NCBI GenBank assembly: GCA_017432025.1
Contig: JAFRJX010000006.1
Coordinates: 1-64,000, forward strand
DNA from: Candidatus Saccharimonadota bacterium
GTDB taxonomy: Bacteria > Patescibacteriota > Saccharimonadia > Saccharimonadales > Saccharimonadaceae
Length of the DNA: 64,000 bases
Direction: 5' to 3'
Within the stretch, counting starts at the first letter, position 1, and the number at the start of each line of letters is the position of its first letter. Positions 43,473 to 62,999 of the stretch are shown here, piece after piece. The notes under the pieces were generated by a model that saw nothing but the letters and a program-made list of their open reading frames with translations, did no database searches and was not told the origin of the DNA. The position numbers and the translations under genes were made by a program.

Positions 43473-43481
43473 TGTTAGAAT
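43473..43481 (+). promoter_or_regulatory. leaderless extended -10 promoter of the 2167-aa gene
   Basis: TGTTAGAAT, eight bases before the ATG at 43490. This decides the start against the longer open frame that reaches back to 43427. Confidence 0.5.
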
Positions 43482-43489
43482 TAAAGGGT

Positions 43490-46400
43490 ATGGTGTTGCG
43501 AGGAAGAAAGGGTACTGGGGTGCGCGGTCTGCTTTTGTTTATGCGCTATTATCCGGAAAAGGTTTTGATTCCGTTACTTTTTCTTGTCACATTTTTCACA
43601 GTCTTTTACTATGGGCAGAATTCACGGATTTACTCGATTAGTGACGATACTCTGCAGGTTTCTGGTGATGCCGAGACGTGTACGTTTACCTCAAATGTAA
43701 CTTCGGCACACACTAAGACGGTCAATCCTGGTTCAACTCAGAGCGGTATTGGCACGACTAAAATTACCACTAAATGCACGAATTCAATTGAACACAAGGT
43801 CTATGCGATTGGCTATTCAAACAATACGGATGGTAATACCGGGCTGATCAATTCATCCGACAATGTGACGATTGCTACTGGGACGGCGACTTCTGGCGAT
43901 GTCTCAAACTGGGCGATGATGATTGCAAAGGATACTTCTTCATATGAGCCGAGTAATTTGACGATTACAAATAGCTTTGGTTCTTATCATGTAGTGCCAA
44001 GCACCTCAACACAAGTATCTGGGTATTCTGGTGCTACGGATGCTACCACTGGCTCGTCGATTACGACGACTTACAGAGCGAAGCTTTCCAGTTCGCAACT
44101 AGCGGGAACATATGTAGGCAAGGTGAAATACACGCTTACGGCGACGATGTTCTACACTGTCACGATTAAGACTGCAACTGGTGTTTCAAAAGTAACTCTT
44201 AATGGAGTAGAATGTACGAGTACTTCTGGATGTCAGGTGACAAATCTCACTGAAGGCGAAACTTATACGCTTGTTGCTACATTGGCAACTGGCTACAACT
44301 TTAGCACTTGGTCTACGCCGGAAAATGGCACGATTGCGGGCGCGACAACTGCTAGTACAACTTTTACCGTTGGTGGTGGTGATGCAACGATTACCCCTTC
44401 GGCAACGCCAAAGACTTACACTATTACCTTAAACAAGAATGGGGCAACGACGGCCGGCTCTAGTTCGACAACTGCAACTTATGGCGCAACGACGCTCGCT
44501 GCGATTACTAGGCCACAAAGGGAATACAACATTTCTGGCTTCACTCTGCCGGCTTCAAATGGCGCAACTGGGGCAGAGGTTTCGAGCACCAACACGGTTA
44601 CTAGCACTTATACGTTTAATGGTTGGTACAAGGAGTCCGGCGCAACTAACAAAATTGCTTCAAATGCGGCTACGCCGGTTCTAGCCGCTAGTACTTCGTA
44701 TACAACTTCTAATGGCACTTGGAGCTATAATGGAGCGCGCACGCTTTATGCTGGTTGGACTGCGCAGATGGTATCACTTCCAACCATTACAAAACAGGGT
44801 TACGACTGTGGTTGGACAGAAACGGCAACTGATGCGACTACGAAAGATTTTCAGACTGGCGATTCGTTAACTCCGACTAGAGACTACACACTTTATGGTG
44901 TTTGTATCCCGATTGATTATACTATTACGATTGATGCTGGGGCAGGTACGACCACCCTTACACTTTCAGGTTGGAGTGGTACTGGCACTGCTACTCTCAC
45001 GAAGACTTTCCATATCGGTGACACGATTGATTTATCAGCCATAACTCCTACTTATAGAACTGGGTATAGTGGTACCAAGATAATTAAAAATGATTCCTAT
45101 GGTTCCTTAAGTGATTCTATCTATACGGTTGGCGCAGGGAATGGATCTATTACGATTAGCGCGTCGGCACTTGATACGCCAGTTTGTACAGTTAGCGGTG
45201 GTAGCGGTAGCGTCGTTTATAACTATGCTGATACTACTTTGACCGCCACGTCAAATGCCGCGAGTTATGATTCGGCCTCTGTGAATATTACGTATGCGTT
45301 CGGTTATGGATCAAGTGCTTCTAATACACTGGGCAACTTCAGTAGTGCGCAGACTAGTAATTCCTATACGGTTGCGAGAAATGCTTTTAAAGGTTCTAGG
45401 TATTATGGTGTTAGAGTTGTGGTGACGGATAAGACGGATAGCACAATTACGGCAACTTGTACCTCTGGTACTGGTACGGGTACTGGTTCGACTGTGGCCG
45501 CAAGGGCAACGGTTGGGCGTGTTAATTCCATTATTCGTTTTGATGCGACTACTAATGGTGGTACTCTGGAAGGTACGACTCCGCTTTATGTTAGCTATCT
45601 TGGGACCGCTACTTATACTTCACGTACTAACTCTACGACGGCATCAATCCCGACCGCTGTACCACCAACTGGTTATACTTTCGATGGTTGGTATACGGAG
45701 TCTAGTGGTGGTAGCAAAGTGCTTAATTCGAGCAACCAGTTAACTGGGACTGCGGTTACTAGTTGGTCGAATGCGGACAGCCAATGGGTTAAAACTAGTG
45801 CGAATATTTCTAATGAGTCAATCAACATTCTCTATGCCCAGTATGTGTCTAAGACTTATACGATTACTCTCAATGGAAATGGCGCGACGACGGCAGGATC
45901 CGGTTCGGCTACGGCTGCCTTTGGTTCAACTTCTTTGTCATCAATCACAAAGCCGTTTAGATCATACACGATTTCTGGCTTTACTTTGCCGGCTTCCAAT
46001 AATGCTTCTGGTGCTTCAGTTGGCAGTACTTCGACTCTCACTAGCTCTTACACCTTCAATGGTTGGTACGAAGAGTCTGCCGCAACGAATCTAGTGGCAT
46101 CAAACGATACGACTCCGGTGCTCCAAGCGAATACTTCTTATACTGATACATCTGGACAGTGGAATTATGATGGTACGACAACACTTTATGCTGGTTGGAC
46201 GGCACAACAAAAGACACTCCCGTCGATTACGAAACCAGGATACGATTGTGGTTGGACGGAAACGGCGACCAATGCTACTTCAATTACTTATCGCTCTGGC
46301 GATCCGTTGACTCCAGGTAGGAATTACACACTTTATGGTGTTTGTACCGCAAATAATTATACGGTGACGGTAGATGCGGGCGCCGGTATTAGTACGCTTG

Positions 46401-49400
46401 CGCTTTCCGGTTGGACTGGAACGGGCACCGGCACGCTTTCGAAGTCCTTCCATATCGGTGAAGTGATTAACCTAGCTTCATTTACTCCAACTTATCTCAC
46501 CGGACATAGCGGTACTACGTATGTAGTGAACGATTCGTATGGTTCAATTAGCGGATCCACATATACAGTGGGTGCAGGGAATGGGCATATTATTATTAAG
46601 GCTAGCACGCTTGCAACGCCGACCTGTACAATGCAAGGCGGTACCACGAAAGTTTATAACCGTTCGGCTACTACTCTTACTGCTACGGATACTTCAAGCT
46701 TATATGAAAGTAATAGCGTAGACATTAGTTATTCATTTGGTTGGGCGACGAGTGATTCTGCGGCGCTTGGTGACTTTAGCTCCCCACAGTCTGGGAACAC
46801 ATTCTCGATTGCGAAGGCATTATTCTATGGAACAAGGTATTATGGTGTAACCGTCAATGTAGTCAGCGTGGATGATAGTTCACTCACGGCAACCTGTACG
46901 TCTGGAACTGGCTCTAGTACGGGTACAACGGTTGCAAACAGGACTACAATGGCATTGGTTAATTCCAGAGTGCAATTAAATGCTGGCGATGGAACTTTGA
47001 GTGGTACGGCTTATTTCTACGTTGCGTATGGTAAGAACAATAAATATAGCTCGAGGACTTCAACTTCGGCATATACGTTACCGACAGTGACACCACCAGA
47101 AGACTATGTGCTTGATGGTTGGTATACATCGGGTGGTGATAAAGTGATGAATGCAGATTTCTCACTGACTGGTGTCGCGGTTTCTGGTTGGTCTAATGCT
47201 TCTCCCAACTGGGTAAAGACCGGTACGAGTAATTCTGCTACTGCTACTGCCAACCAACTCTACGCGCACTATACATTTAATGGCACTTACATCCAGAATT
47301 TACCGAGCGCTTCTTGTACATCTACTCCACTTAAAGTTTATGATAGTCGTGACATGCAATCGTATTATGTAAAACGTCTTGCGGATGGGAACTGCTGGAT
47401 GATGGATAATTTGAATCTTGGCGCAACGGATTTAACGGTTGAACTGAGCAGTACTAATTCCAATTTCGTGTCGCCACTTACAGCCGAAGTATTTAATAGT
47501 TGGCGCGTTACGACTGGTTCAAATACTTTGACCGATGGTGAGTTCTTTAATTATACTGGCAATGATCCGACTTCAGAAGGTAGATATGGTACACTCTATA
47601 ACTACTATGCTGCGACTGCGACTTATTTCTCTGGAAGCACGACGACGCAAAACTCAAAGAATGACATTTGTCCGGCTGGCTGGAGACTCCCGACTGGTGG
47701 TCAATATGGCGAATACGATGAGCTAACGAAGCTTCCAGCTTTTGACACGGTTGCGGAACTTAGGACTCCAGTTATGAGTGGTGGTTTTGGTTTGGCGTTT
47801 GCTGGGTATGGTGGCGTAGGCAACGTAGCATATATCAATCAGCTTGGAACCTATTGGACTTCTACAAGAGTTAATGATACAAATATGTATTATATGTCTG
47901 TGAATTCGTCCATGATTGGTGCTACATATTCGACTTCTCGTGGATATATGCAATCGATTCGTTGTGTCATGAAAAAGACTGCACATCAAGTAACTGTTTC
48001 ATACGATTCGGGCATAGCTAGCGTAACGCTTAATGGTACGAGCGTAGCAAATGGATCAAGTGTCTTGCTAGAAGACGATGCTTATTATTATATTGAGGCT
48101 ACAACTAATTCGGGCTACAACTTTGGTAGCTATTCTGCTACGGTCGGTAGTTTTGTAACCACCACGCTAGGATCGACCTATTATAAGACCGGAACTGCCG
48201 CAAGCACGATTACTGTTACTTCGGCAGCTGCCACTTTTACATGTACAAAACAGTTCCGTTTACAAAATGCTGACGGAACTTATCCAAGTACCTATACTGT
48301 TGATAGCGTTGAAACTCTTACTGTCGGTGATATTTGTGACTACGTGAAGTCTTATACAAACTATCAGACACAATCTGATAACCAGGCACCACTTGGCCCT
48401 ATCGATGTAACCCTTTCGCTTGATCTCCCTAGGAATACTTATACGCTTACTGTTTATAAATATTCGTCAATCTCTACCGTTGGGTATAGCGGGACATATA
48501 GATGGGGACAAGAAATCCAGCTGACGGCAACGCCAAATCTTGCAGAGGGATACAGGTTTTACCAGTGGGCACATTATAATTCGGAAAATGAAGGCACTTT
48601 TTCGTCGACTACTATTACTAATCCGACCTACACGATGCCGATTGGGAATGCTAGTATCGTTGCTTCCGGCAGAAAGAATTATTTCCAGGAGCGTCTATAT
48701 TCGTATTGTGGCTACCCAATGTGGGATTATCGAACTAATACATCATATAAAACTGTAATTATTAATACTTGGTGTTATATGGCAGAAAACTTGGACCTTC
48801 CGGGTGGAACGACGGTTGAATCGACGCATTCACATGTGTCTAGTAGCTATACTTTGCCGGCTTCTTCTACGGGCGCTTCAACTGGTGTTTATAATTCTGG
48901 TACCAGAGACTGTTCATCTGGTGGCCCATGCTATAGTTATTACAACTGGACTGTAGCAACGGCTGGGACAAACCCGACGTTTGGCATGGCAGAAGCAGAT
49001 ATTTGTCCGAGATATTGGCGCTTGTTGCAACAGAATGATCTAGATAGAATTTCGTCTTATCATTATACGAACCAGATACCGTTAACTTCTGCGCCATTCG
49101 AAGGAAATGCGTCCGGATTATACTCTACATCTGGAGGATATAATAATTCGAATACGATTATGTTCTGGGCGGGTGCTAATCATTATGTAGGTCCTGATAA
49201 TGCACGTAGTGGTTATGCCTATAATGCAACGTCTGCTACTTATTTCGGTAATGCGCAGTATATGAAGGATGTTAGGGCTGGCGTGCGTTGCGTGATGGCA
49301 AACACGAATACATTATCTTCGGCTACGACGATGCAAAGTGTAGCACCAGACATGATTCTAAATTCGGCCAATGGTGCGACTGCGACTCTTACGGATAGCC

Positions 49401-49993
49401 GGGACACCTCGGTTTCTTATGGTGTGCTTAAAGCGGCAAATAGTTTGTGGATGACAGATAACCTTAAGGTTCTAGGTGGTGCAACTATTTCAAACACGGC
49501 ATCGAATATAACTTCAAGTACATCCTATACTTTGCCGGCTAGCGTGACCAGCCCAGCCTATTGGACTAATAGTAATACTTCGGCGGTGCTTTACACTGGG
49601 ACTGCATCAACCACTGGTGGATACTACAATCATGTTGCGGCGACGGCCACGATCCAAAACACGACAGCCGCCAATAATGCTTCAGTGATGAATCAACCAA
49701 TGCAGAGTATTTGCCCACGCCCGTGGCGCATACCGACATACCATGAGCTTGCTGATTTGGTCTCTAGTTTTGGCACGCAGATGATCAATTTGCTTGGTCT
49801 TGCCAAGAATGGCTATATTGCTTCAGGCGGTTTATCGATGAGTGGTTATTATGGATTCTGGTGGACAATGACGACTAGTGCAACTGACGCGACGAAGGCT
49901 TATATCTTAACTGAAACTCCGTCGAATACGCTTACATTGCAACTTGTTGATAAGTATTATGGCGCTAATATTCGCTGTATTTATAATAGTTAA
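43490..49993 (+). CDS. giant surface protein (2167 aa) with InlB-like and FISUMP modules
   Basis: The ATG at 43490 follows the extended -10 and gives a basic N-terminus before one export helix (about 25-45). Order: a beta domain of about 170 residues with two Cys, InlB/Listeria-Bacteroides-type repeats (ending in patterns such as LYAGWTA) within two copies of a 480-residue unit, then three FISUMP modules. The first FISUMP copy is canonical (DGNCWMMDNL, ICPAGWRLPT, IRCV); the other two are more diverged. There is no LPxTG and no C-terminal anchor, so attachment is by the N-terminal helix or non-covalent. An adhesive role is inferred. Confidence 0.88.
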   Translation: MVLRGRKGTGVRGLLLFMRYYPEKVLIPLLFLVTFFTVFYYGQNSRIYSISDDTLQVSGDAETCTFTSNVTSAHTKTVNPGSTQSGIGTTKITTKCTNSIEHKVYAIGYSNNTDGNTGLINSSDNVTIATGTATSGDVSNWAMMIAKDTSSYEPSNLTITNSFGSYHVVPSTSTQVSGYSGATDATTGSSITTTYRAKLSSSQLAGTYVGKVKYTLTATMFYTVTIKTATGVSKVTLNGVECTSTSGCQVTNLTEGETYTLVATLATGYNFSTWSTPENGTIAGATTASTTFTVGGGDATITPSATPKTYTITLNKNGATTAGSSSTTATYGATTLAAITRPQREYNISGFTLPASNGATGAEVSSTNTVTSTYTFNGWYKESGATNKIASNAATPVLAASTSYTTSNGTWSYNGARTLYAGWTAQMVSLPTITKQGYDCGWTETATDATTKDFQTGDSLTPTRDYTLYGVCIPIDYTITIDAGAGTTTLTLSGWSGTGTATLTKTFHIGDTIDLSAITPTYRTGYSGTKIIKNDSYGSLSDSIYTVGAGNGSITISASALDTPVCTVSGGSGSVVYNYADTTLTATSNAASYDSASVNITYAFGYGSSASNTLGNFSSAQTSNSYTVARNAFKGSRYYGVRVVVTDKTDSTITATCTSGTGTGTGSTVAARATVGRVNSIIRFDATTNGGTLEGTTPLYVSYLGTATYTSRTNSTTASIPTAVPPTGYTFDGWYTESSGGSKVLNSSNQLTGTAVTSWSNADSQWVKTSANISNESINILYAQYVSKTYTITLNGNGATTAGSGSATAAFGSTSLSSITKPFRSYTISGFTLPASNNASGASVGSTSTLTSSYTFNGWYEESAATNLVASNDTTPVLQANTSYTDTSGQWNYDGTTTLYAGWTAQQKTLPSITKPGYDCGWTETATNATSITYRSGDPLTPGRNYTLYGVCTANNYTVTVDAGAGISTLALSGWTGTGTGTLSKSFHIGEVINLASFTPTYLTGHSGTTYVVNDSYGSISGSTYTVGAGNGHIIIKASTLATPTCTMQGGTTKVYNRSATTLTATDTSSLYESNSVDISYSFGWATSDSAALGDFSSPQSGNTFSIAKALFYGTRYYGVTVNVVSVDDSSLTATCTSGTGSSTGTTVANRTTMALVNSRVQLNAGDGTLSGTAYFYVAYGKNNKYSSRTSTSAYTLPTVTPPEDYVLDGWYTSGGDKVMNADFSLTGVAVSGWSNASPNWVKTGTSNSATATANQLYAHYTFNGTYIQNLPSASCTSTPLKVYDSRDMQSYYVKRLADGNCWMMDNLNLGATDLTVELSSTNSNFVSPLTAEVFNSWRVTTGSNTLTDGEFFNYTGNDPTSEGRYGTLYNYYAATATYFSGSTTTQNSKNDICPAGWRLPTGGQYGEYDELTKLPAFDTVAELRTPVMSGGFGLAFAGYGGVGNVAYINQLGTYWTSTRVNDTNMYYMSVNSSMIGATYSTSRGYMQSIRCVMKKTAHQVTVSYDSGIASVTLNGTSVANGSSVLLEDDAYYYIEATTNSGYNFGSYSATVGSFVTTTLGSTYYKTGTAASTITVTSAAATFTCTKQFRLQNADGTYPSTYTVDSVETLTVGDICDYVKSYTNYQTQSDNQAPLGPIDVTLSLDLPRNTYTLTVYKYSSISTVGYSGTYRWGQEIQLTATPNLAEGYRFYQWAHYNSENEGTFSSTTITNPTYTMPIGNASIVASGRKNYFQERLYSYCGYPMWDYRTNTSYKTVIINTWCYMAENLDLPGGTTVESTHSHVSSSYTLPASSTGASTGVYNSGTRDCSSGGPCYSYYNWTVATAGTNPTFGMAEADICPRYWRLLQQNDLDRISSYHYTNQIPLTSAPFEGNASGLYSTSGGYNNSNTIMFWAGANHYVGPDNARSGYAYNATSATYFGNAQYMKDVRAGVRCVMANTNTLSSATTMQSVAPDMILNSANGATATLTDSRDTSVSYGVLKAANSLWMTDNLKVLGGATISNTASNITSSTSYTLPASVTSPAYWTNSNTSAVLYTGTASTTGGYYNHVAATATIQNTTAANNASVMNQPMQSICPRPWRIPTYHELADLVSSFGTQMINLLGLAKNGYIASGGLSMSGYYGFWWTMTTSATDATKAYILTETPSNTLTLQLVDKYYGANIRCIYNS
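44411..47272 (+). repeat. two tandem copies of a 1440-bp (480-aa) unit
   Basis: Copy 1 runs 44411-45850 and copy 2 45851-47272. Each starts KTYTITLN, contains NGATTAGS, ISGFTLPASN, YDCGWTETAT, FHIGD/E, YTVGAGNG and TATCTSGTG in the same order, and ends LYA-Y. Protein similarity is strong throughout while the DNA has drifted, so the duplication is not recent. Confidence 0.85.
47300..49993 (+). repeat. three FISUMP modules of the 2167-aa protein
   Basis: Approximate limits: 47300-47976, 48690-49300 and 49340-49993. Each has a WM--NL block, an ICP--WR block and a closing RC. The first matches the family pattern best; the second and third have lost parts of the DGNCWM block. Confidence 0.75.
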
Positions 49994-50072: not shown

Positions 50073-53000
50073 TTGTTGGAAGTAAAAAGCTTTAAACAGA
50101 TGCGAATGGTTCGCATTGGTGGGCAAGTGTCTGCCGGCGCGCTTTTCCTTTTGTTTGCTTTATCGGTTGCTCCATTTAGTATTGGTGGTGATAGTGTTGA
50201 AGCTGAAACTGATTCGACTGTGCCAAGTACGCTGACTTTTGTGGCTGCGAATGCTAATGCGACAGTTGAGATTAACCCTTCCGAAACGGGTACATTCGGC
50301 ACGACTTCAGGGAATGATAACATTAGATTCACGATTGCAACGACTAATAGTAGCGGCTATACTTTAACTGCAAAATCAACCAAAACTACGCTTGATCGTA
50401 CTGGTTCGGGGCAGCTGGCTACGCTGGCCTCTGCGGTGACGCAATCTTCGTTTAGCAGTGCGTCGAATACGACACTTAACGGACGTTGGGGTTACAAGCC
50501 AAATTATTATAATTCTTCTTCGAATACTAGATACCGTCCAGCGCCGTCATCTTCTGGCGTGACTCTTGATAAGACTACGGCTGCTAATACATCAGCTAAA
50601 TCATATACCATTGCACTGGGCGCGAGAATCGACTATAGTGTAGCGGCTGGCTCTTATGTCAATGATACCTTCCAACTTCAATATGTTGCTAACCCGGTGC
50701 CCTATACGATTGCTTTTGATGCGAATGCGGACGATGATATTGTAACCAACATGCCATCAAACTTGACTGGCACTTCTTCGTCACCAGATACAATTACTTT
50801 GCCGTCGAAGACGCCACAGCGCACGAATTATACTTTTGCGGGTTGGTGTACAGCACAACCGACTGAAGTGGCCGGTGGGCAGAGCTGTTCTGGTACAACA
50901 TATTCGGTGAGTTCGCAATATGGTATGGACTATACGGCTGATAACTCAAACAATGTTTTGTATGCAATCTGGACTTCAAATCGTAGTTGCAACAGAGCTG
51001 CTACCACGATTGGCACTGGAGTAACCGCTACTGATGCAGTTTGTATGCAGGATATTAATGATACCGTAATTGCATCTATGAATACCGGCGTACAACATTC
51101 TTTGGTTGACGAGCGCGATGATAAGTCATACTTTATTGCCAAGCAGGCTGATGGAAAAGTCTGGATGACGCAGAACCTGAATTATAATTTAAGTACCTCA
51201 ATCACGCTTACTCATCATAATACCGATCTTGGCTATACAACCGATGACGAGACAAAGACTTGGACGCCAAGTGCGACCACTTTGACCGATATCTCGAACT
51301 GGACTAATAACACATCGGCTCCAATGTCATATGACGCTAGCACGTGGTATTATACATCTTCCGGTTCGACTTCAAACGATACGGTTTCTGCAGTTTGTTC
51401 TGACTCTTCGACTTGTAAGCATTTTAATGCTGGTACTTACTATAACTGGCTAGCGGCAATTGCGGAAAATGAGACCAGTACTGACAATATGGCAAGAATG
51501 CCGGATTCGGTTTGTCCAGCGGGATGGAGGTTACAGGAGAGCTATTCTAATGATTATTACTCTGAGCTTAATAGTTTGTTTGTTGCGCTCGGTTATGTGA
51601 CTAGATATGTTTCTAGCGGAAATGCGGCTTTGGCTTCGGGTGCCCTAAATAGCTTGCGCGGGGCTCCATTGTATATCGTAAGGGCATCAAGCGTAAATAG
51701 CGGTGCGATAACTAATAATGGCGCGACCGCTTATGCTTGGACTAACACTGCAATGGATAATGAAAAATCTAGAGCGCCGGCGATTAATAGCCAGACATTC
51801 TATCCATTGAATTATGTGAATAGGAGCTATGGTCTTTCGGTAAGATGTATAGCAAGGATGAGTCCACATACGACCACGGTCCGTTTCCATGGTAATGGCT
51901 CGACCGGAACCGACCTTGTAACTAGGACGGTTGATAACGGGTTTGCCGTGAGACTAGATAATGTTGAATTTGTGAGATTAAACTATAAGCTTACAGGCTG
52001 GAATACGAGCGCTGATGGATCTGGCACAGCTAAGGCATTTACGGAAACCTATCTTACCGGTGCTGGTGTATCTTCGGATATTGAATATGATCTATACGCT
52101 CAATGGACGCCATCTTACAATATTACTTATAATGGTAATGGAGCAAGCAGTGCTTTAACTATGCCGGTAGGACATAATGTAATAGATGGTGAAGAGTTTG
52201 CTCTTTACGCCCCAAATTACGTTAGAACTGGCTATGGCTTTGCGGGTTGGTCCACGACGCAGATTGATCCGGATGCATCAAATGCGGCTACTTTAATGGC
52301 AAATGCAAAAATCTTTGGGCCGAATCAGACGCTCACGGCAAATTATGCAACGCTTGGCGCGAATGTACCGGCATCAGTGACTTTGTACGCAGTATGGGTG
52401 AAATCTTCTGGTAATATGCAAGATTGGAAGGGATGTACGTCCCTCACTGCCGCGACACGTTCTGATGATACGATTACGCCCGGTAGCGTGATTGCACTGA
52501 CTGATACCAGAGATGGTGACACTTATGCAATTGCGAGACTAGCTGACGGCAACTGTTGGATGATGGAGAATTTGCGTTTGGATGACACTAATTCATCAGA
52601 TTCAAGCAAGGCACAAGGCTTTGGCGATGGCTTTATTGGCTTAGCTCATACCGAAGACTTTTTCGTAAATGATACTACGGCGAATACTTTATATAGTACT
52701 TCGAATATTACTGGTAATAATATTGCAAACCGCATTCCACGTTATAACAATAACAATACAAAGACTACGGGTCAGGCTGAAGATGGGACGACCCTTGTTT
52801 CGGACCCGGGGAACAGTAGTCTCTACAACCAGTGGTATGGTTATGGCAATTTGTACACTTGGGCGGCAGCGATTGCTAGCACCGAAGATATTGAGGGCAC
52901 TACTGGTTCTGGGACTTTCACGTCGATTTGTCCGAGCGGATGGATACTCCCAGCGAATGGCAGTACGACGGTTGATTATACTTATAGTAAATTGCTAAAT

Positions 53001-56000
53001 TCACTTACTGGCACAACGGCAACATCTGTTTCGTCTTCGACTGCGGCAACGATCTTTAAACGATTCCGTACGTATCCATATAATTTTGTGGCTTCTGGCT
53101 ATCAGAACGTTTCGGCAATGAGTAGCCGTGAAACTGATGTATATTTGTGGGCGTCATTCTATGCTGGTACTAATTATGCGTATGGTGGTGCATACAGAAT
53201 TTCTAGTAGTAATATATATTACACTTCTCTCCAAAGATCGGCGGGTGTTCCGATGAGATGTGTTGCCGATAAGGATTATCGAATTCACTATAATGGTAAT
53301 GGTGCGGATGCAGGTCATGACATGAGGGTTACCAGTGTCGTGAGTTCTGGCAATGCTGTAACTCTTTCTGCGCCAAACTTTGTCCGCAGTGGCTACGGTT
53401 TTGTGGGTTGGTCTACGACGCAAATTAATCCAGACGCATCAAATGCTGCCACGCTTATTGCCAATGCCACTATTTATGGTCCGAATGAGACGGTAACATT
53501 TAGTAGTGTCAGTAGTGATATTACCCTCTATGCGGTATGGATGAAGTCGGCAGGGAATTTACAGGGTTGGACCGGTTGTTCTTCGCTTGCACAGGGAAGC
53601 TTCACGGCGCTGAAGGATACGCGTGACAATCAAGTTTATGCGGTGGTGAAACTTGCGGATGGAAACTGTTGGATGGCGGAAAACTTAAGGCTAAACGACG
53701 ATCATTCGATTGATTACGCGAAGATGCAAGGTGTTGGCGGTGTATACGTTGGGCTTGGGAATAGTGCGACTAACTTTGCTGAAGGCACTCTTAACACGTC
53801 GCTCTATACAGCTAATCCTCGAACGACGGAATTAGCATACATTTCTGGAGATTATCAGATGTATCGTTTTCCTAAATATAATAATCAAAACACTGCGCTT
53901 AGCATTGAGCATATGTCCGATGTTGCTCAAAATGTCTATTTCTATGGGAATTACTATAACTGGCATGGCGCAATGGCAAATACTAGTATCATGAATGTGG
54001 CGAGTGTTTCAGATTATGCTGGGTCATCACTATGCCCGTCCGGTTGGAGGTTGCCAACAGCCGGGATTGCTGCGAGCGGAAAAGAACTTAATGTCATAAT
54101 GACGACACTGAACGTTCCGTCTAACGACTCTTCTAATCTACGTAAATTCCCGTACAACTTTATTTACAGCGGCGTGTACCAATCCTCTAACGCGAACTCT
54201 CGAGGAACGCGTGGTGATTATCTCTCTAGTTCAGCATATGATGAAAGCCGCGTTTATAGTCTCGTTTTCTATGATACTTCGAGTCAACACTATGCTGCGG
54301 TCACCACTAATCAGAAGGTGTGGGGCAGTTCTATTAGATGCATCAAAGATGATCGGATGGTGGTAACGCTTGACGCGAACGATGGAAGTGGTAGATACGA
54401 AAGAGTGTATGGTGATACCGGCTTTGCTACTACGATTCCAATTTCGCCGGCATTTCAAAAAGATGACTCTGTGGTGACATCATGGAATACACAGCCAGAT
54501 GGTAGTGGTACGAGTTATACGACTTCGTATACTGGCGGAACTTCCATTACGCTTTATGCTCAATGGACTTCTTCCTATAGGATTATTTATGATGGTAATA
54601 ATGCTACTTCTAGTAGTAATATGAATGCGTATGGTCATTCCGGTATAGCGAGTGGCGCTGAGGTGGTACTTTATACTAATAATGTGCTAAGAGATAATTA
54701 CGGTTTTCTTGGTTGGTCTTATACACAAATTAATCCGGATGCGTCGAACGCGGCGACACTGATTGCAAACGCCAAAATACTTGGACCAAATGAGGCGGTC
54801 ATTGCTAATGCTACTAATTTTGGCGTAAATGCTCCGGCAACGGTGACGCTATATGCTGTGTGGATTAAATCATCTGGAAATATGCAGAACTGGAGTGGAT
54901 GCGATAGCCTTACGCAAACAACATATTCGAATGGTGTAATTACTCCGGGTGGCGTGATTGGCCTGACCGATACCCGCGATAATAAAGTTTATGCAGTTGC
55001 TAGGCTTTCCGATGGTAGTTGTTGGATGATGGAGACACTGCGTCTTTCGGGTAACAATGCGAATATCACGGCTGCTACAACCAATAAGCCAACGGACGCA
55101 TTTCCGGGTTCCTCCGGTTACTGGTGTTGGACAAATAGTGCCGATTGTGTTAATAGAATTAACTCTTCCTGGTCACTGACGCCAGCATCGACTCAGTATT
55201 ACAACTTCTATACTGCGACGGCCGGAAATGGTACTTATGAGATGACAACTGGAACCGCAGCGGGTGATATCTGTCCGAAGGGATGGCACTTATCAAATGC
55301 TTTGGTAAACAGTACTAGTGATTATTTCAAATTGGCGGTTTCGCTTGGCGGTTCTTATGCAACGATGACCGGCGCGCTTGGCTCTTCGGTTTCGAGAAGG
55401 CTACGTGCATATCCAAATAATTTTGGCTATCCGGGATATGGTCAAAGCTCGTCATCTAGCTCTAGCAACGCAAATGTTACTAATAATAGGATAGCTGGCT
55501 ATTATGCTGGTGCAAATGCGTATTCGCAGAATCAATATGCAATGTTTTATATTACTGATACTGGTGTCTATGCCACTCAATACTCAAAGTATCTTGGCTC
55601 TTCGGTAAAATGTGTAAAGAATCCAAAGACGGTTTATTATGATGGCAATGGCGCTGATAATCCTTCGGCAATGAGCGTTTCTCATCTAGCGACGGCTGGC
55701 TCCTCCTTAAACTTGTATGCATCTAATTATAGACGTGCTGGCTATGGTTTCCTCGGTTGGTCATTCACGCAAATTGATCCGGACGCTTCTGATGCGGCAT
55801 CTCAAATCGCGAATGCGGTAATCTATGGTCCAAACCAAACAATTGAGCTTCCAAGCGTAGTTTCTGGTGATTTGACTCTCTATGCGGTTTGGGCAAAATC
55901 GGCTGGCAATATGCAAGACTGGTCTGGCTGTGCGTCGCTCTCTTCTGGTAGTGTGACTGCGCTTAAGGATTCGCGCGATAACCAGGTTTATGCAGTGGCA

Positions 56001-59000
56001 AAATTGGCTGATGGTAACTGTTGGATGATTGAAAACTTACGTCTTAATTCGGCGAATTCGACTGATAATTCTAAGGCACAGGGTTTTGGTGGCGTCTTTA
56101 CCGGTTTGCCAAATTCCGAATTTGCCTCATTCACGACATCTATGACGGCAAACTCGTTATATACGACCGATCCAGCATCAACATCTCTGAATGTGATTGC
56201 TGGTGGTGACAATCTCCAGTATAGAATTCCAAGGTTTAGCGATTCTGTCTCTAGCGCTGTTTCGACAATGACTGCTGCCAACCAAAGTATCTATTCATAT
56301 GGTAATTATTATAATTTCGCTGCAGCTAAGGCAAGTACTACTGAGATGGCGACTACTGCGGCATCTGAATGGTCTGGCACATCGATTTGTCCAAAGGGAT
56401 GGCGACTTCCGACCGGCGGTGCGAGTGGTTCAAATAAAGAGTTTGAGGCGTTGAATACGGCTGCCAATTCCGGTAGCACGGCATCTTCGGCTGGGATTAG
56501 AAGCTACCCGAATAACTTCGTTTATTCTGGTTCAGTATGGAATTCGTCCTATAGTGGAGTTGGCTCATATGGTCAATATTTCTCGACCAGTTCGAACGCC
56601 GGTACAGGGTTCTTCGAATATCAGATTGGGGCGAGTTCAGTAAATGTTGGTCGTAGTGTCTATAGGAGTATTGGTGATTCAGTACGCTGTATTGCTAATA
56701 CTGGCGTGACTATCACACTTAATTCGAATGATGGTTCTGATAAAGTTGCTCGCATATATGTTGCAAGTGGAACGGCAGTTACACTTTCGAGCGAGATATT
56801 CGAAAACGAAAACCATACAATTACTTCATGGAATACAACGACTGGCGGTACTGGTACTAGCTATACAACTACAATCACGCCATCTTCTAATGTAACTCTT
56901 TATGCTCAGTGGACGGCCGCATATACTATTACTTATAACGGCAATAACGCTACGGGTTCGACTAATATGACTTTGTCTAGACATACGGGAGTAAAAAATG
57001 GCGATTCAATCATGCTGTATGCTAATAATTACATCAGAGATGGTTATGGTTTTCTTGGCTGGTCTACGACGCAAGTCGATCCGGATGCATCGAATGCACA
57101 TACTTTAATTACAAATTCTGTGGTTTGGGGACCAAACGAAACGATTACGGCCAATTCGACAAATCTTGGCGCAAGCGCTCCGACGAGTGTAACATTGTAT
57201 GCTGTTTGGGTAAAAGCTAGTGGCACATTCCAGAACTGGAACGGATGCGCTTCGATGACGACAACAACTTACAACAGTAGCACTGGAACGTTTACTACGG
57301 GTAGTTATATTGCGCTCACTGACACTCGCGGCACTACGGCAAATACATATACGATTGTTAGATTGCCAGGTGGATACTGCTGGATGATTGAAGATGCAAG
57401 ATTCAATGTTGGAAGCGACACGATAACGGCTGCCAATACTAACCATCCAACGTCTACATTCCTTGCTAATAAGACGAACACTCCGTCTACATGTACTGGT
57501 ACAAACCAGGCTTGTGTTGAATCAATTATCTATTCTAGTGGTCTAGGACTTTCTCAGGGTACTTACTATGGCTGGTGGACGGCAACGGCAGGAAATGGTG
57601 CATATAATTCGAATAATTCGTATGATAGTGATATTTGCCCGACGGGCTGGCATATGCCGATTAGCTATGGTACTGGTAGCGAATATGGCACTTTGCTTGC
57701 GAATATTGGTGCCGCTGCGAACACTAATTACACAACTACGTCATCCCCAACTGCCACTGTACTATCGGCTAGATTGCGTAGCTTCCCGCTTAACTTCTTG
57801 TACGCTGGTGATGTTCAAGGCACTAATACTTACAGTTATAGAACGGAAGGGTATTATAACTCTGCTAATGGTTGGAATAGCGGCTCTACTTATTATAGGT
57901 ATTACTTTGGACTTAGCGATAGTTTTGTGAGAGTAAGCTATGGTTGGTCTAAATATATGGGCTTTAGACTAAGGTGCGTATATGCTCCTGAGATTACATA
58001 TGATGGTAATGGTGCTACTTCTGGAGATATGTCTACTAAATCGTCAAGGCTTTTCAATGTTTCATCTGTTACCCTGCGTGCTCCAACCTATGAACGGACT
58101 GGATATGGCTTCTTAGGCTGGAGTCCGGTAGCTAACGGTACGGGTACGATTTACGGACCAAATGAAACCGTTTCGACTTCGAGCCTTTTGACGTATGCCG
58201 ATGCAGTTGGCAACGTGAAAATGTATGCAATTTGGGTCCAATCTACTGGTAATCTCCAAAACTGGAGCGGGTGTGATAGCCTTACAAAGCCAACAGTGAA
58301 CGGTGCGGTATCCAATAAGGGAAATGTTACGGCGCTTACCGATACTCGCGACAATAGGACTTATACAGTAGCAAGGCTTGCGGACGGCAACTGTTATATT
58401 GCTGAGAACTTAAGACTTGGTTTAACGGAGCTCACAACGGACTTAATCGGGAGCAATACAAATCTTTCTCTTCCTGTTACGGCGTCAGTTTTCAATGGTT
58501 GGAGATCCGCTACGGCAACCTCTACGACATCGACCGGGCTTGTCTATACTGGCCTTTCGAGCTACGGGAAGAATGAGATTCTTTACAATTATTGTGCTAT
58601 TTCGGCTGGTTTGATGTGTACCGATTCTTCTACTACCGATATTACCTATGATCTTTGTCCGGCTGGTTGGAGATTATCTACTGGTGGATATAATACTGGC
58701 GATATTACTGGCCTCTATAATCTTGGTTATAATACTAGCGCTCTGGCCAGAAAATCCGTAGTAACCGGTGGTATGGGTTTTGCGATGAATACTAATCTCG
58801 CAAATACCGACGATAGCGCATTCTACTTTACTTCTACTAATGCCACAAATAATATTTATGCCCCGCAAATTACAGTGTCATCCTTTGGGCCTTCTTATCA
58901 GGCGGGTAGAAGTAATTATGGTCCACTTAAATGTGTACTAAATAAAGCCCGTACAGATCTTACGGTTTACTATGGCACTGGCGTATCGTCAATTACAGTC

Positions 59001-61586
59001 AATGGTAACGTCGTGCCTAGCAGTGGCAAAGTGCGACTCGATCCTGGTACATCAGTAACAGTTGTAATGTATTTGAAGACGGATTATGCCTTTAGTTCAT
59101 GGAGTACCTCTGGCGGCACACTCGGCGTCTCGGCACAAACCACAACATTCACGCTCGGGACCGGTACTACTGCATCCATTACGGGATATGCAACATTTAC
59201 TGGTACCTATATCCAAAACATGAGTGATACTCTTTGTACGACGACAGCAAGAAAGGTTTATGATAATCGTGATATGCAGACATATTACGTGAAGAAGCTT
59301 TCTGATGGTAATTGTTGGATGGTGACTAACTTGAACCTTGGTGGAGTAACTTTCTATAACAACTTGACCAGTTCTAACACGAACCTATCCACTACAGTTA
59401 CGTATTCGACTTTCAATGGTTGGAAGAAAACATCTAGTGCTTCGACTTATACCGATGGCGAATTCATGGTGCTCTCTGGTTCAGACTCAACGACCGGTAC
59501 TCCATATGGTACACTTTATAATTATTACGCGGCGACAGCCGGTACGATTTCGGGCGATTCGAACTCAACCAATGCATCTTACGATATCTGTCCAGCGGGT
59601 TGGAGATTGCCGACTGGTGGCACTGGTAGCTCTGAATATTATAATCTTTATAACTATTACAATTCGTATTCCTTAATGCGCGCATCGTATAACAACGGTG
59701 GTGCGGCATTTAACCAGCCGGGTTGGTTCGGTGGTGGTTCTGCTACTTCTAATGTGAATCTAGGATTAACAGGTAGCTTCTGGTCATCGACAACTTATAA
59801 TTATAACTATCGTTATGGTATGTATGTAGCAACATCTGGACCAACGGTCCAGAGGGATGCGCCGATGATCCGAAATGGTGGCCATTCAATTAGATGTATT
59901 AAGAAGCCAAATGGCGTTACGCTGACTGTTAACTATTCGAGAGGCGTGTCTTCGGTTTACGTGAACGGCAGTTATGTGGCAAACGGTTCATCTGCTAATG
60001 TTGCGGTTGGAACATCGGTAACGATTACGGCATATATGAGTGGTGGCTATTCGTTCTCGAGCTGGGTAGCGGGACAAGGTACAGTTTCGAGCTCTTCTTC
60101 ATATAGTACTACCTACACTGCGCCTTCGTCGGCTGTAACAACTACTTTGGCGGCCAATGCAACATTTACTGGTATTAGAATCCAGAATTTGACACCTTCT
60201 TACTGTACATCAACGCCACTGACAGTTTATGATAGCCGCGATGACCAGGCATATACTGTAACGAGATTGAAGGATGGTCGTTGTTGGATGACGGATGATT
60301 TGAAGCTTGGTAATACTACTGTGCTAGCTGATTTGACTAGCTCAAATACTAACCTTTCATCAACGATTACGGCATCGACATTCAATGGTTGGAGAAACCA
60401 GGCTGGTACTGTTTCAACCGGTGGTTATACTACGCCATCTTCAGGTACTGATCCGGTTTCCGGTAGGGCATATGGTGTAACTTATAACTATTACACGGCT
60501 TCAGCCGGTACGATTTCCGGTGATTCCAACAGCAACAATGCTTCTTATGATATCTGTCCGGCGGGTTGGAGACTTCCGACTGGCGTAACTACGACTGGTG
60601 ATTTTGCAAAGTTGTTTGCAGTTTACAATACATATTCATTAGTGAAATCGCCAGTAGCGGATGGTGGTGCAGCGATGAATGATTATAGCCCGACTTCTGG
60701 AGTGTCTGAGTATTGGTCTTCGACCAATAACAACACGACTACTATGAGGACAACATATGTCACTACTTCGTACTTGTATTCGAATTTCAATTCACAACGT
60801 CAGTATAAGAATACAATTCGTTGTCTATTAAAGAGCGATAGCTATAATATCTCTAACCTTACATACTTACAAGATTGGAACTCGCTATCGAGCGCCAATA
60901 AGACCAATGTTCTTAACAGTATGTATGATAGCGTGCTTTACCATTTGACCGACAACCGTGATGGTCAATCTTACAATGTGGCAAAGCTAAAAGATGGTCA
61001 TATCTGGATTACGCAGAATTTGAATCTTGGCAATTCGAATATTTCTGTGAACCTCACGAGCTCTAACACTAATATTTCCTCGACTATTACTTATACGACC
61101 TTTAATAACTGGAGAAAATCTTCAATTACTCCTACTCTCACTGCTGGTGAACTTGTGTATGTTAATGGAACTGACGCCACTTCTGGCACTCCGTATGGCG
61201 TAATGTATAATTATTGTGCGATTTCTGGTGGTACTATTTGCTCAAGCAGTAGCACTGCAAATGCATCGTATGATCTTTGCCCGGCAGGTTGGAGGCTTCC
61301 GACTAGTGGCTTTGGTCCTTCGTATGAAGTGTTTGCGATTGGCACGAACTATTCCGGAAGTGCGATGTTTGCTCCGATTACTTCTGGCGGTGCGGCCTTT
61401 GTGCTAGGGGGCAGAATGACCGGTGGTAACTTGATCAATTATTCTGGCACTTATGGTGATTATTGGAGCTCGATCAATGACGGTAGTACTACATATATGA
61501 AGACGATTAACTTTGACTCCTCTTCGGTGGCCGATGCTCAAATTAGCCGTGGCGCAGCTATTAATGCTAGATGTCTCGGCAAGTAG
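50073..61586 (+). CDS. giant surface protein (3837 aa) with ten FISUMP modules
   Basis: Translation starts at TTG 50073 (or TTG 50076), seven bases after GGAGGAG. A basic start and hydrophobic stretch (about 15-38, ending near VEAE) form a signal peptide. A beta domain (about 45-215) is followed by alternating InlB-like repeats (ITYNGNGA...LYAVW) and ten FISUMP modules, ending NARCLGK. The FISUMP pattern is D-RD--Y-V-KL-DG-CWM--NL, a YN--AA block, ICPAGWRLPT, then a YWSS-type stretch and RC. Three or four cysteines per module suggest disulfides and an extracellular site. No sorting signal or C-terminal helix is present. The 11.5-kb frame is intact. A multivalent binding role is inferred. Confidence 0.9.
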   Translation: MLEVKSFKQMRMVRIGGQVSAGALFLLFALSVAPFSIGGDSVEAETDSTVPSTLTFVAANANATVEINPSETGTFGTTSGNDNIRFTIATTNSSGYTLTAKSTKTTLDRTGSGQLATLASAVTQSSFSSASNTTLNGRWGYKPNYYNSSSNTRYRPAPSSSGVTLDKTTAANTSAKSYTIALGARIDYSVAAGSYVNDTFQLQYVANPVPYTIAFDANADDDIVTNMPSNLTGTSSSPDTITLPSKTPQRTNYTFAGWCTAQPTEVAGGQSCSGTTYSVSSQYGMDYTADNSNNVLYAIWTSNRSCNRAATTIGTGVTATDAVCMQDINDTVIASMNTGVQHSLVDERDDKSYFIAKQADGKVWMTQNLNYNLSTSITLTHHNTDLGYTTDDETKTWTPSATTLTDISNWTNNTSAPMSYDASTWYYTSSGSTSNDTVSAVCSDSSTCKHFNAGTYYNWLAAIAENETSTDNMARMPDSVCPAGWRLQESYSNDYYSELNSLFVALGYVTRYVSSGNAALASGALNSLRGAPLYIVRASSVNSGAITNNGATAYAWTNTAMDNEKSRAPAINSQTFYPLNYVNRSYGLSVRCIARMSPHTTTVRFHGNGSTGTDLVTRTVDNGFAVRLDNVEFVRLNYKLTGWNTSADGSGTAKAFTETYLTGAGVSSDIEYDLYAQWTPSYNITYNGNGASSALTMPVGHNVIDGEEFALYAPNYVRTGYGFAGWSTTQIDPDASNAATLMANAKIFGPNQTLTANYATLGANVPASVTLYAVWVKSSGNMQDWKGCTSLTAATRSDDTITPGSVIALTDTRDGDTYAIARLADGNCWMMENLRLDDTNSSDSSKAQGFGDGFIGLAHTEDFFVNDTTANTLYSTSNITGNNIANRIPRYNNNNTKTTGQAEDGTTLVSDPGNSSLYNQWYGYGNLYTWAAAIASTEDIEGTTGSGTFTSICPSGWILPANGSTTVDYTYSKLLNSLTGTTATSVSSSTAATIFKRFRTYPYNFVASGYQNVSAMSSRETDVYLWASFYAGTNYAYGGAYRISSSNIYYTSLQRSAGVPMRCVADKDYRIHYNGNGADAGHDMRVTSVVSSGNAVTLSAPNFVRSGYGFVGWSTTQINPDASNAATLIANATIYGPNETVTFSSVSSDITLYAVWMKSAGNLQGWTGCSSLAQGSFTALKDTRDNQVYAVVKLADGNCWMAENLRLNDDHSIDYAKMQGVGGVYVGLGNSATNFAEGTLNTSLYTANPRTTELAYISGDYQMYRFPKYNNQNTALSIEHMSDVAQNVYFYGNYYNWHGAMANTSIMNVASVSDYAGSSLCPSGWRLPTAGIAASGKELNVIMTTLNVPSNDSSNLRKFPYNFIYSGVYQSSNANSRGTRGDYLSSSAYDESRVYSLVFYDTSSQHYAAVTTNQKVWGSSIRCIKDDRMVVTLDANDGSGRYERVYGDTGFATTIPISPAFQKDDSVVTSWNTQPDGSGTSYTTSYTGGTSITLYAQWTSSYRIIYDGNNATSSSNMNAYGHSGIASGAEVVLYTNNVLRDNYGFLGWSYTQINPDASNAATLIANAKILGPNEAVIANATNFGVNAPATVTLYAVWIKSSGNMQNWSGCDSLTQTTYSNGVITPGGVIGLTDTRDNKVYAVARLSDGSCWMMETLRLSGNNANITAATTNKPTDAFPGSSGYWCWTNSADCVNRINSSWSLTPASTQYYNFYTATAGNGTYEMTTGTAAGDICPKGWHLSNALVNSTSDYFKLAVSLGGSYATMTGALGSSVSRRLRAYPNNFGYPGYGQSSSSSSSNANVTNNRIAGYYAGANAYSQNQYAMFYITDTGVYATQYSKYLGSSVKCVKNPKTVYYDGNGADNPSAMSVSHLATAGSSLNLYASNYRRAGYGFLGWSFTQIDPDASDAASQIANAVIYGPNQTIELPSVVSGDLTLYAVWAKSAGNMQDWSGCASLSSGSVTALKDSRDNQVYAVAKLADGNCWMIENLRLNSANSTDNSKAQGFGGVFTGLPNSEFASFTTSMTANSLYTTDPASTSLNVIAGGDNLQYRIPRFSDSVSSAVSTMTAANQSIYSYGNYYNFAAAKASTTEMATTAASEWSGTSICPKGWRLPTGGASGSNKEFEALNTAANSGSTASSAGIRSYPNNFVYSGSVWNSSYSGVGSYGQYFSTSSNAGTGFFEYQIGASSVNVGRSVYRSIGDSVRCIANTGVTITLNSNDGSDKVARIYVASGTAVTLSSEIFENENHTITSWNTTTGGTGTSYTTTITPSSNVTLYAQWTAAYTITYNGNNATGSTNMTLSRHTGVKNGDSIMLYANNYIRDGYGFLGWSTTQVDPDASNAHTLITNSVVWGPNETITANSTNLGASAPTSVTLYAVWVKASGTFQNWNGCASMTTTTYNSSTGTFTTGSYIALTDTRGTTANTYTIVRLPGGYCWMIEDARFNVGSDTITAANTNHPTSTFLANKTNTPSTCTGTNQACVESIIYSSGLGLSQGTYYGWWTATAGNGAYNSNNSYDSDICPTGWHMPISYGTGSEYGTLLANIGAAANTNYTTTSSPTATVLSARLRSFPLNFLYAGDVQGTNTYSYRTEGYYNSANGWNSGSTYYRYYFGLSDSFVRVSYGWSKYMGFRLRCVYAPEITYDGNGATSGDMSTKSSRLFNVSSVTLRAPTYERTGYGFLGWSPVANGTGTIYGPNETVSTSSLLTYADAVGNVKMYAIWVQSTGNLQNWSGCDSLTKPTVNGAVSNKGNVTALTDTRDNRTYTVARLADGNCYIAENLRLGLTELTTDLIGSNTNLSLPVTASVFNGWRSATATSTTSTGLVYTGLSSYGKNEILYNYCAISAGLMCTDSSTTDITYDLCPAGWRLSTGGYNTGDITGLYNLGYNTSALARKSVVTGGMGFAMNTNLANTDDSAFYFTSTNATNNIYAPQITVSSFGPSYQAGRSNYGPLKCVLNKARTDLTVYYGTGVSSITVNGNVVPSSGKVRLDPGTSVTVVMYLKTDYAFSSWSTSGGTLGVSAQTTTFTLGTGTTASITGYATFTGTYIQNMSDTLCTTTARKVYDNRDMQTYYVKKLSDGNCWMVTNLNLGGVTFYNNLTSSNTNLSTTVTYSTFNGWKKTSSASTYTDGEFMVLSGSDSTTGTPYGTLYNYYAATAGTISGDSNSTNASYDICPAGWRLPTGGTGSSEYYNLYNYYNSYSLMRASYNNGGAAFNQPGWFGGGSATSNVNLGLTGSFWSSTTYNYNYRYGMYVATSGPTVQRDAPMIRNGGHSIRCIKKPNGVTLTVNYSRGVSSVYVNGSYVANGSSANVAVGTSVTITAYMSGGYSFSSWVAGQGTVSSSSSYSTTYTAPSSAVTTTLAANATFTGIRIQNLTPSYCTSTPLTVYDSRDDQAYTVTRLKDGRCWMTDDLKLGNTTVLADLTSSNTNLSSTITASTFNGWRNQAGTVSTGGYTTPSSGTDPVSGRAYGVTYNYYTASAGTISGDSNSNNASYDICPAGWRLPTGVTTTGDFAKLFAVYNTYSLVKSPVADGGAAMNDYSPTSGVSEYWSSTNNNTTTMRTTYVTTSYLYSNFNSQRQYKNTIRCLLKSDSYNISNLTYLQDWNSLSSANKTNVLNSMYDSVLYHLTDNRDGQSYNVAKLKDGHIWITQNLNLGNSNISVNLTSSNTNISSTITYTTFNNWRKSSITPTLTAGELVYVNGTDATSGTPYGVMYNYCAISGGTICSSSSTANASYDLCPAGWRLPTSGFGPSYEVFAIGTNYSGSAMFAPITSGGAAFVLGGRMTGGNLINYSGTYGDYWSSINDGSTTYMKTINFDSSSVADAQISRGAAINARCLGK
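51040..61586 (+). repeat. ten FISUMP modules of the 3837-aa protein
   Basis: Approximate limits: 51040-51860, 52418-53275, 53550-54345, 54880-55620, 55910-56700, 57230-57985, 58250-58940, 59210-59910, 60180-60830 and 60860-61586. Modules 2-6 are separated by InlB-like repeats with the recurring QI-PDASNA stretch; modules 7-10 are spaced by a shorter linker or directly adjoin. The framework blocks are conserved and the stretch before the final RC varies strongly between copies. Confidence 0.8.
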
Positions 61587-61643: not shown

Positions 61644-62168
61644 GTGAATAAAAAGGTTTTGTGTTGTTCCGTAGCGGCATTAAGCGCTTTTCTTGGGGCA
61701 GCAAGTGTTTATGCGACCGATCCGTCAGCAGTAGTCGATAATCTTAACGTGACAGTTGATGAGATTTGTACGTTTACGAGAACTGCTGGTAGTGCCACAA
61801 TTTCTAAGGCGATGACTGCCAACAAGGGTGCTACTGCGATGAATTCTACCGCGAATACTTTTGTGGCGGTTTGTAATGCTGGTAATGGCTATCAGGTGGC
61901 TGCAACTTGGACTGCACTTACTGGTGGTTCTGGTTCTGCCACATTCGCTTATCATACCTCCCCGTCTAAGGGATATAACCGTTGGGCAGCTTATGTCAAC
62001 GGAAGTACCACAGCTTTAGCTGCCACTAGCGCAAAATTAATGGATACTAGTGCTCCGGATACCTCTGAAGGTACAACTGCGACGGTGATTTATAAGGTTT
62101 CTACAGCATCCGATGTTCCATCTGGTACTTATACTGGTACTGCAACCTATACTTTGACCCAAAAATAG
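61644..62168 (+). CDS. small secreted beta-rich protein (174 aa)
   Basis: GTG start with GGAGG six bases upstream. A clear signal peptide (cleavage near VYA, about residue 24) precedes about 150 residues of beta-rich sequence with two cysteines (DEICTF and VAVCNAG). It ends SGTYTGTATYTL. The same closing pattern and layout occur in the N-terminal domains of the two giant proteins just upstream, so this looks like a stand-alone version of that domain. It could be a pilin-like or WxL-like surface subunit; the family is not recognised. Confidence 0.85.
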   Translation: MNKKVLCCSVAALSAFLGAASVYATDPSAVVDNLNVTVDEICTFTRTAGSATISKAMTANKGATAMNSTANTFVAVCNAGNGYQVAATWTALTGGSGSATFAYHTSPSKGYNRWAAYVNGSTTALAATSAKLMDTSAPDTSEGTTATVIYKVSTASDVPSGTYTGTATYTLTQK

Positions 62169-62202: not shown

Positions 62203-62278
62203 GGGGTAGTAGCTCATCTGGTAGAGCGCAGCATTCGCATTGCTGAGGTGGACGGTTCGAGTCCGTTCTACTCCACCA
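62203..62278 (+). tRNA. tRNA-Ala (anticodon CGC)
   Basis: A full cloverleaf with encoded CCA. The acceptor stem GGGGTAG/CTACTCC contains the G3-U70 pair that marks alanine tRNAs. The D arm is GCTC-GAGC, the anticodon stem CAGCA/TGCTG with loop TTCGCAT (anticodon CGC, reading GCG), and the T arm GACGG-TTCGAGT-CCGTT. A T run directly after CCA acts as terminator. Confidence 0.96.
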
Positions 62279-62296: not shown

Positions 62297-62325
62297 TTGA
62301 CATTTTAGCGTAAGTATGATATAAT
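62297..62325 (+). promoter_or_regulatory. consensus promoter of the sortase-like gene
   Basis: TTGACA (62297-62302), a 17-base spacer and TATAAT (62320-62325): a perfect match. The leader of about 46 bases has a run of nine Ts and AAAAAGGGGG before the ATG. Confidence 0.85.
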
Positions 62326-62377: not shown

Positions 62378-62968
62378 ATGGAGAGAAAACGGCGAGGAAA
62401 AAGGCTATTTCAAGAGCTTTTTATTTCGTTCGGACTTAGCATTGCAATGGTTTTAGCAATTTTTCTTCTCGGTGAGCAGGCGCTGTATCTGTTGACGGAT
62501 TCGGCGTTTGGCACGCATGGGAGATTATCAATTCCAACACTTGGGATTGATGTTGCAGTTTATAATGCGCACGGTGAGAATTCGCAGGCAATTGTAGACA
62601 AAACCGATTCGGCGGCTTTTATCCGTTGGAAGGAGCAAAATGTGATTGTGGATCATCGTTCACAGAGCTTTTATCTACTTCCGGAGGCAGTTCCTGGCGT
62701 GACTAAAGCGTGCCTTGTTACACCGTTTTATACGGATTATTACGTTTGTACGTATTCGGGCACTGGAAAAATCATTTATGGCGAAAACCATATGTGTAAA
62801 TTCGTGAATGATCAGGGTGAGGCAGTAAACCTCGCAAACCAAGGTGGCATCTGTATGTACACTTGTCAAAGCGAAATGGTCAATAGCGAAGTTTCGGTTT
62901 ATGTAACTTATTGGCGATTATCGAGCATTGACCCACTCCATTTTCTAGAAAAAGTTCTATCACTATAA
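62378..62968 (+). CDS. sortase-like membrane protein (196 aa)
   Basis: An N-terminal helix (about 15-37) anchors an extracellular domain that follows the sortase plan: it opens with RLSIPTLGIDVAVYNA, has a candidate catalytic histidine in VIVDHRSQ, a cysteine in CMYTCQSE and an arginine in VTYWRLSS. The usual TLxTC is changed to MYTC, and extra cysteines are present (five in the domain). It may be a divergent sortase or an inactive relative. It is the last gene of the surface locus, and the giant proteins or the 174-residue protein are possible substrates. Confidence 0.75.
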   Translation: MERKRRGKRLFQELFISFGLSIAMVLAIFLLGEQALYLLTDSAFGTHGRLSIPTLGIDVAVYNAHGENSQAIVDKTDSAAFIRWKEQNVIVDHRSQSFYLLPEAVPGVTKACLVTPFYTDYYVCTYSGTGKIIYGENHMCKFVNDQGEAVNLANQGGICMYTCQSEMVNSEVSVYVTYWRLSSIDPLHFLEKVLSL

Positions 62969-62972
62969 AAAT

Positions 62973-62999
62973 AGCTCCGGCGAGGCCGGAGCTTTTTTA
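62973..62999. terminator. bidirectional terminator between the sortase-like gene and glyA
   Basis: AGCTCCGGC (62973-62981) pairs perfectly with GCCGGAGCT (62985-62993) around GAG, with a T run to the right and A-rich sequence to the left. It serves two convergent genes. Confidence 0.9.

Follow-up and report, generated by a model that had tools for sequence, protein, structure and literature searches.

The open reading frame at positions 62378-62968 (forward strand) of the window, i.e. of the whole analysed stretch of 64,000 nucleotides from a Candidatus Saccharimonadota bacterium, encodes a divergent, membrane-anchored sortase-fold protein that belongs to an unnamed, phage-linked family. Sortases, which join proteins covalently to the cell surface, are known as membrane enzymes of Gram-positive bacteria. 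The protein is probably a membrane-anchored extracellular cysteine enzyme with a sortase fold, from a distinct family with the signature DHxxQxF ... C ... YTC that is shared with phages and was maybe acquired from them. A sequence-only reading of this DNA had already called the gene product a divergent sortase; as far as the fold is concerned this agrees with the structure prediction reported below, but the His-Cys-Arg part of that reading does not hold.

The frame starts with ATG and codes for 196 amino acids. Its homologues include a protein with 88% identity (L007) from a Candidatus Saccharibacteria genome of roe-deer omasum, which is the nearest named homologue, and a protein with 68% identity (L008) from a different genome of the same genus as the target. 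Comparison with L007 gave a dN of 0.065 and a dS of 0.93 (dN/dS about 0.07); the target is therefore a real gene under purifying selection. The host is a small rumen-type Saccharibacterium with a genome of under 1 Mb. The protein has a basic start, followed by a hydrophobic segment at about residues 14-32 (62417-62473, forward strand; hydropathy 2.54 over 19 residues and 2.64 over 17 residues) and a single domain, the sortase-fold domain of about residues 46-184 (62513-62929, forward strand). An N-terminal signal or anchor segment as in sortase classes A-F is thus present, and the domain is predicted to be extracellular.

Upstream of the gene are a tRNA-Ala (CGC) at 62203-62278 and a promoter-like site, TTGACA-17-TATAAT with 12/12 matching positions, at 62297-62325 (both forward strand), and downstream follows a bidirectional terminator-like stem-loop of 9 pairs at 62973-62993. 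These patterns suggest that the target forms a transcription unit of its own behind the tRNA. At the L007 locus, where genes were named from sequence, the homologue likewise has a giant repeat protein, this tRNA-Ala and a serine hydroxymethyltransferase-like gene around it, with one extra gene ahead of the latter. A transposase gene (L007:4528-5712) lies there between the tRNA-Ala and the target homologue. The window also encodes a small secreted protein of 174 aa at 61644-62168, which has a 12/12 promoter-like site of its own and no counterpart at the L007 locus. A paralogue in the same genome (L029:428-1000) has the ending ...GTYxGTATYTLTQK in common with it. L029 was considered as a sorting signal and rejected, as its frame of 174 aa has no hydrophobic tail at the end.

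Single-sequence searches with the target were uninformative. Alone it matched no Pfam or NCBIfam sortase model at E<=1, and no Pfam family of any kind at this threshold, and it lies outside PF04203, the family of sortase classes A-F. A two-row profile led to the distant relatives L009, L010 and L011, and from there to a six-row profile of Saccharibacterial members (A2). With A2, all four PDB matches at E<=10 were sortases, the best being 4d7w (E 0.012). A wider alignment, A6, comprised 18 rows, namely the window protein, L007 and 16 viral rows. The DHxxQxF and YTC residues of the viral rows were preset by the DNA pattern with which these were found, so that conservation at these positions is by construction and part of the profile score of the viral members stems from them. 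All six PDB matches of the A6 profile were sortases as well (best E 0.029). In this alignment His93 falls on His120 of SrtA (‘IAGHT’) and Cys163 of the YTC motif on Cys184 of SrtA (‘LITC’). When A6 was compared by hhalign with nine canonical sortases from the target's and related genomes, an E value of 2.3e-7 was obtained, with the GH and TC residues aligned.

The AlphaFold2 model calculated on A6, i.e. on the target and 17 homologues, reached a pLDDT of 88.8 and a pTM of 0.83; an earlier two-sequence prediction had a pLDDT of 40 and its fold was not used. Foldseek returned 89 PDB chains at E<=0.001, of which the best 50 were all sortases (best E 3.7e-6), and all 50 entries listed by VIA-align were likewise sortases (Z 13.7 to 11.8). 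Neither list speaks for an absence of class B or class F. A structure search of BFVD gave nothing at E<=0.001, the best matches being an unnamed protein (2.6e-3) and a protein of Streptomyces phage TP1604 (0.014). In the model, strand 4 consists of residues 87-92 and is directly followed by His93, and strand 7 consists of residues 158-163 and ends in Cys163. According to passages of PMC5148588, sortases have a His-Cys-Arg triad in which the Cys terminates strand 7 and the Arg lies close to where strand 8 begins; the active-site residues of SrtA are also given there. The His after strand 4 and the Cys of a T-C pair ending strand 7, seen in both model and alignments, place the target in the sortase superfamily, and its predicted fold is a sortase beta-barrel. 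The core of the sequence-only reading, a divergent sortase, thereby stood up to the fold check which that reading had itself named.

With the PF04203 sortases of classes A-F the target thus has in common the barrel, the membrane anchor, the His after strand 4 and the T-C of strand 7. It differs from them by Asp-His in place of Gly-His, by the lack of an Arg where strand 8 begins, by an extra conserved Cys in strand 6 and by being invisible to PF04203. Staphylococcus aureus SrtA (2mlm, 1t2p, 2kid) is about 15-16% identical to the target, and while its His120 and Cys184 have their equivalents in His93 and Cys163, its Arg197 is without counterpart. Among streptococcal class C sortases (3re9, 3g66, 4d7w), 3re9 headed the VIA list with a Z of 13.7 and an rmsd of 3.5 over 122 residues; rows of classes A and E came within 1 Z of it. 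The class C rows listed share 11-18% identity with the target, and a pilin-polymerising function is not indicated for it.

The sequence-only reading had stated that the His-Cys-Arg order of sortases is kept. His93, Cys163 (62864-62866, forward strand), the probable nucleophile, and Arg180 (62915-62917, forward strand) do occur in this order, but Arg180 is not at the canonical position and could not be confirmed as the catalytic Arg. It follows the Cys at a distance of 17 residues, which corresponds to position ten of strand 8 in the model, and L008 has a Lys in its place. In canonical sortases the Arg forms an invariant column, with 9 of 9 rows carrying it 7-14 residues after the Cys. In the target no Arg was found at residues 168-175 (strand 8 begins at 171) or anywhere from C+7 to C+14, and the canonical Arg is absent from both close relatives, too. 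In a survey of 22 distinct family members (the partial L272 left out), an Arg was present between C+5 and C+13 in 13 and missing in nine, and therefore the family overall does not depend on this residue. The position of Arg180, the Lys in L008 and this survey together make the order accidental as far as the Arg is concerned.

The altered surroundings of the active site, MYTC, which had also been pointed out, are indeed what residues 160-163 read, but the change is a mild one, since the T-C pair of canonical sortases is retained. Larger departures are the Asp replacing Gly ahead of the His and the missing Arg. The D92-H93-x-x-Q96-x-F98 motif (62651-62671, forward strand) contains the probable catalytic His93; neither this motif, His93 included, nor Cys163 varies among the six Saccharibacterial members. 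One could read the protein as a pseudoenzyme, i.e. a sortase barrel kept as a membrane binding or scaffold protein without catalysis, and the target clade, with its missing canonical Arg and its Asp in the place of Gly ahead of the catalytic His, fits such a reading. We regard it as rather unlikely, since the six Saccharibacterial members with their invariant His93 and Cys163 were found without fixing those residues and 13 of the 22 family members have an Arg where strand 8 begins or close by. Catalysis by the putative pair His93/Cys163 is likely, and, like transpeptidation and a phage origin, is deduced here from comparison.

A further departure from canonical sortases is Cys124 in strand 6 (62747-62749, forward strand), which is invariant in the A2 and A5 alignments and present in 16 of the 18 A6 rows. 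It is one of four cysteines besides Cys163 (residues 112, 124, 140 and 159), in line with the extra cysteines reported before. Its near invariance, together with a CxxxC (Cys159-Cys163) that occurs in the target and its nearest phage clade, would suit a thiol-redox protein that uses CxxxC and Cys124 as disulfides. This is extremely improbable, because the fold matches listed are all sortases with no thioredoxin among them and Cys159 is not kept family-wide in the gap-free alignment.

The private DHxxQxF motif, the conserved strand-6 Cys and the absence of the Arg in the target also weigh against the idea that we are dealing with an ordinary sortase of classes A-F which merely diverged in a small genome. 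In favour of this idea, the fold is common to classes A, C, D and E. Of the six A2 members searched singly, one reached PF04203 at 5.9e-4. Single members of the wider family reached class C or general sortase models at 5.3e-6 and 1.5e-4, the first value being that of one of the six for the NCBIfam class C model. Yet in a tree of 29 rows the family stood apart from seven canonical sortases, which came from the same and related genomes, with a support of 94/97, and an ordinary sortase is accordingly improbable. Since the Arg was looked for and is missing, the target was not counted among the ordinary members of classes A-F.

Among 392 genomes of the order, the full-family profile found matches in 11. 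Six of these matched via canonical sortases and were discarded, and five carry the family (G000, G251, G300, G202 and G405). At the level of the phylum, an earlier profile matched 2 of 379 genomes, one of them through a canonical sortase. Four further candidates (L012, L013, L014 and L015) were weak or broken matches and are not family members. The distant members at L009:1489-2211 and L011:1492-2298 lie inside ribosomal-protein operons, on the opposite strand (genes named from sequence). When the target was searched directly against plasmids, deposited phages and viral contigs, no match was obtained; the same was true for the A2 and A3 profiles in viral contigs and for the other family members in plasmids or phages.

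Viral contigs were also scanned for the DNA pattern of DHxxQxF ... YTC in four scans, which gave 83, 68, 65 and 65, altogether 281, stretches. By profile, 17 of these encode family members (L033, L042, L054, L055, L075, L088, L115, L124, L127, L128, L134, L140, L146, L166, L168, L272 and L273). L182 and L033 are one contig, and L272, a partial member, did not enter A6, the Arg survey or the tree. Five strict-motif matches (L110, L120, L155, L169 and L285) were dropped, as the A5 profile did not match them. A profile made from the three rows of the target clade only matched most phage members, with E values from 1.2e-17 to 0.014, the unmatched ones being L124, L168 and L272. Conversely, a viral-only profile found the target at 4.8e-28, and a control with reversed sequences gave no matches. 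We take similar ‘DHxxQ...YTC’ proteins to be present in elements of gut Firmicutes.

Apart from its own group, the target has its nearest relatives in these unnamed phage proteins. The phage members carry the same motifs as the target and differ from it by their setting among tail and lysis genes and by the frequent lack of the anchor: when the whole open frame was read, a hydrophobic anchor ahead of the domain was absent in 8 of 16 viral members. Of the 17 viral loci, seven were scanned for neighbours (20 proteins), and tail or lysis genes were found at six of them. The neighbours were tape measure, distal tail and tail proteins at L166, a tail protein and an endolysin at both L088 and L140, a minor tail protein and an endolysin at L033, an endolysin at L146 and a weak amidase match at L075; the scanned neighbours of L128 included no tail or lysis gene. 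Three members in phage tail operons, at L166:7959-8345, L140:2212-2595 and L088:7232-7642, have neither signal nor anchor. The L166 frame overlaps both its neighbours in the tail operon, which supports its start. None of these three proteins is well covered by any PHROGs, Pfam or NCBIfam family, and in PHROGs no family clearly covering DHxxQxF...YTC members was found. Among the publications listed on sortases in Saccharibacteria, Patescibacteria and phages, no paper dealt with the family by its title or the start of its abstract.

In the tree of 29 rows the target clade grouped with five phage members with moderate support (86/88). The six Saccharibacterial rows were not united, a pattern with which a single origin is still compatible. 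Both features together make gene exchange between phages and the Saccharibacterial clade likely, in either direction. The family is probably common to this clade and phages, and the clade may have acquired it from phages.

In the sequence-only reading the target stood next to giant proteins that lack sorting signals, and either a new substrate motif or another function was proposed. The neighbourhood is a loose one, as the secreted 174-aa gene and the tRNA-Ala intervene. The missing signals were confirmed: when 40 non-overlapping frames were chosen from the 59 of at least 120 aa in the window, none of them (0 of 40) had an LPxTG-like motif followed by a hydrophobic segment and a basic tail. 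The choice between new motif and other function, however, arose because only the window had been considered, and even there a canonical sortase of another family at 37995-38696 (forward strand; PF04203 match of 64 bits, cut-off 26.6) had been overlooked. The latter gene lies within a block of ribosomal and RNA-polymerase genes and overlaps the 3' end of secY by ~29 bases; the next large frame encodes ribosomal S13.

The target genome encodes five other, canonical sortases (PF04203), and the L007 genome gave four matches. Classic C-terminal sorting signals are found in the target genome as LPKTG, IPQTG and IPSTG endings (L026, L027 and L028). At L003:1480-3478, a class-B-like sortase adjoins a repeat protein whose C-terminus consists of NPTTADT, a hydrophobic segment and KKSYRK; the two form a probable enzyme-substrate pair. 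The five canonical sortases can serve the LPKTG, IPQTG, IPSTG and NPTTA signals. Since canonical sortases and sorting signals thus occur elsewhere in the genome, a signal-free window says little, and given the canonical sortase in the window and the signals in the genome, one need not postulate a new motif for the giant proteins.

Two giant secreted proteins without recognisable anchor are encoded in the window at 43427-49993 (2188 aa) and 50073-61586 (3837 aa), both with repeats of the FISUMP and InlB/Listeria-Bacteroides type. It is very improbable that the target is a sortase dedicated to these giants by way of a new, non-hydrophobic sorting signal. The L007 homologue is also located near a giant FISUMP-type protein, which speaks for such a role. 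Against it, the giants lack a basic tail, and no hydrophobic segment was found at their C-termini, which makes them poor candidates for any classical sorting reaction. The target, moreover, appears as a separate transcription unit behind the tRNA, going by its promoter- and terminator-like sites, and L009, L010 and L011 have no adjoining giants within stretches of about 3 kb.

If the target is the anchored cysteine enzyme that we favour, its N-terminal helix would keep the barrel outside the membrane, and Cys163, which terminates strand 7 and would be activated by His93, would attack a peptide bond either in a surface protein or in the cell wall. The thioacyl intermediate formed in this step would then be transferred to an amine or water. 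What the canonical Arg does for the oxyanion or the substrate may be taken over by Gln96 or a main-chain group, or may be dispensable.

More tentatively, it is possible that the phage proteins are small sortase-fold cysteine enzymes of the tail/lysis modules, about half of them anchorless and some of them without the Arg, that act in the virion or in tail assembly, and that Saccharibacteria acquired an anchored form for the contact surface. The phage form would then cut or covalently join tail-tip proteins, or link the tail to the host envelope; the phage gene would have been taken up by Saccharibacteria, perhaps repeatedly, and the anchored form would be used where cells touch. Saccharibacteria live attached to other bacteria, and their lifestyle depends on this attachment. 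For annotation, proteins that are invisible to PF04203 now have a motif and an alignment. A family that recurs in uncultivated phages next to tail and lysis genes, is often anchorless and sometimes lacks the Arg would widen the known range of sortase chemistry and would put to the test whether the Arg is indispensable. For Saccharibacteria, it would mean one more surface enzyme in a genome of under 1 Mb, in an organism with an attachment-dependent lifestyle.
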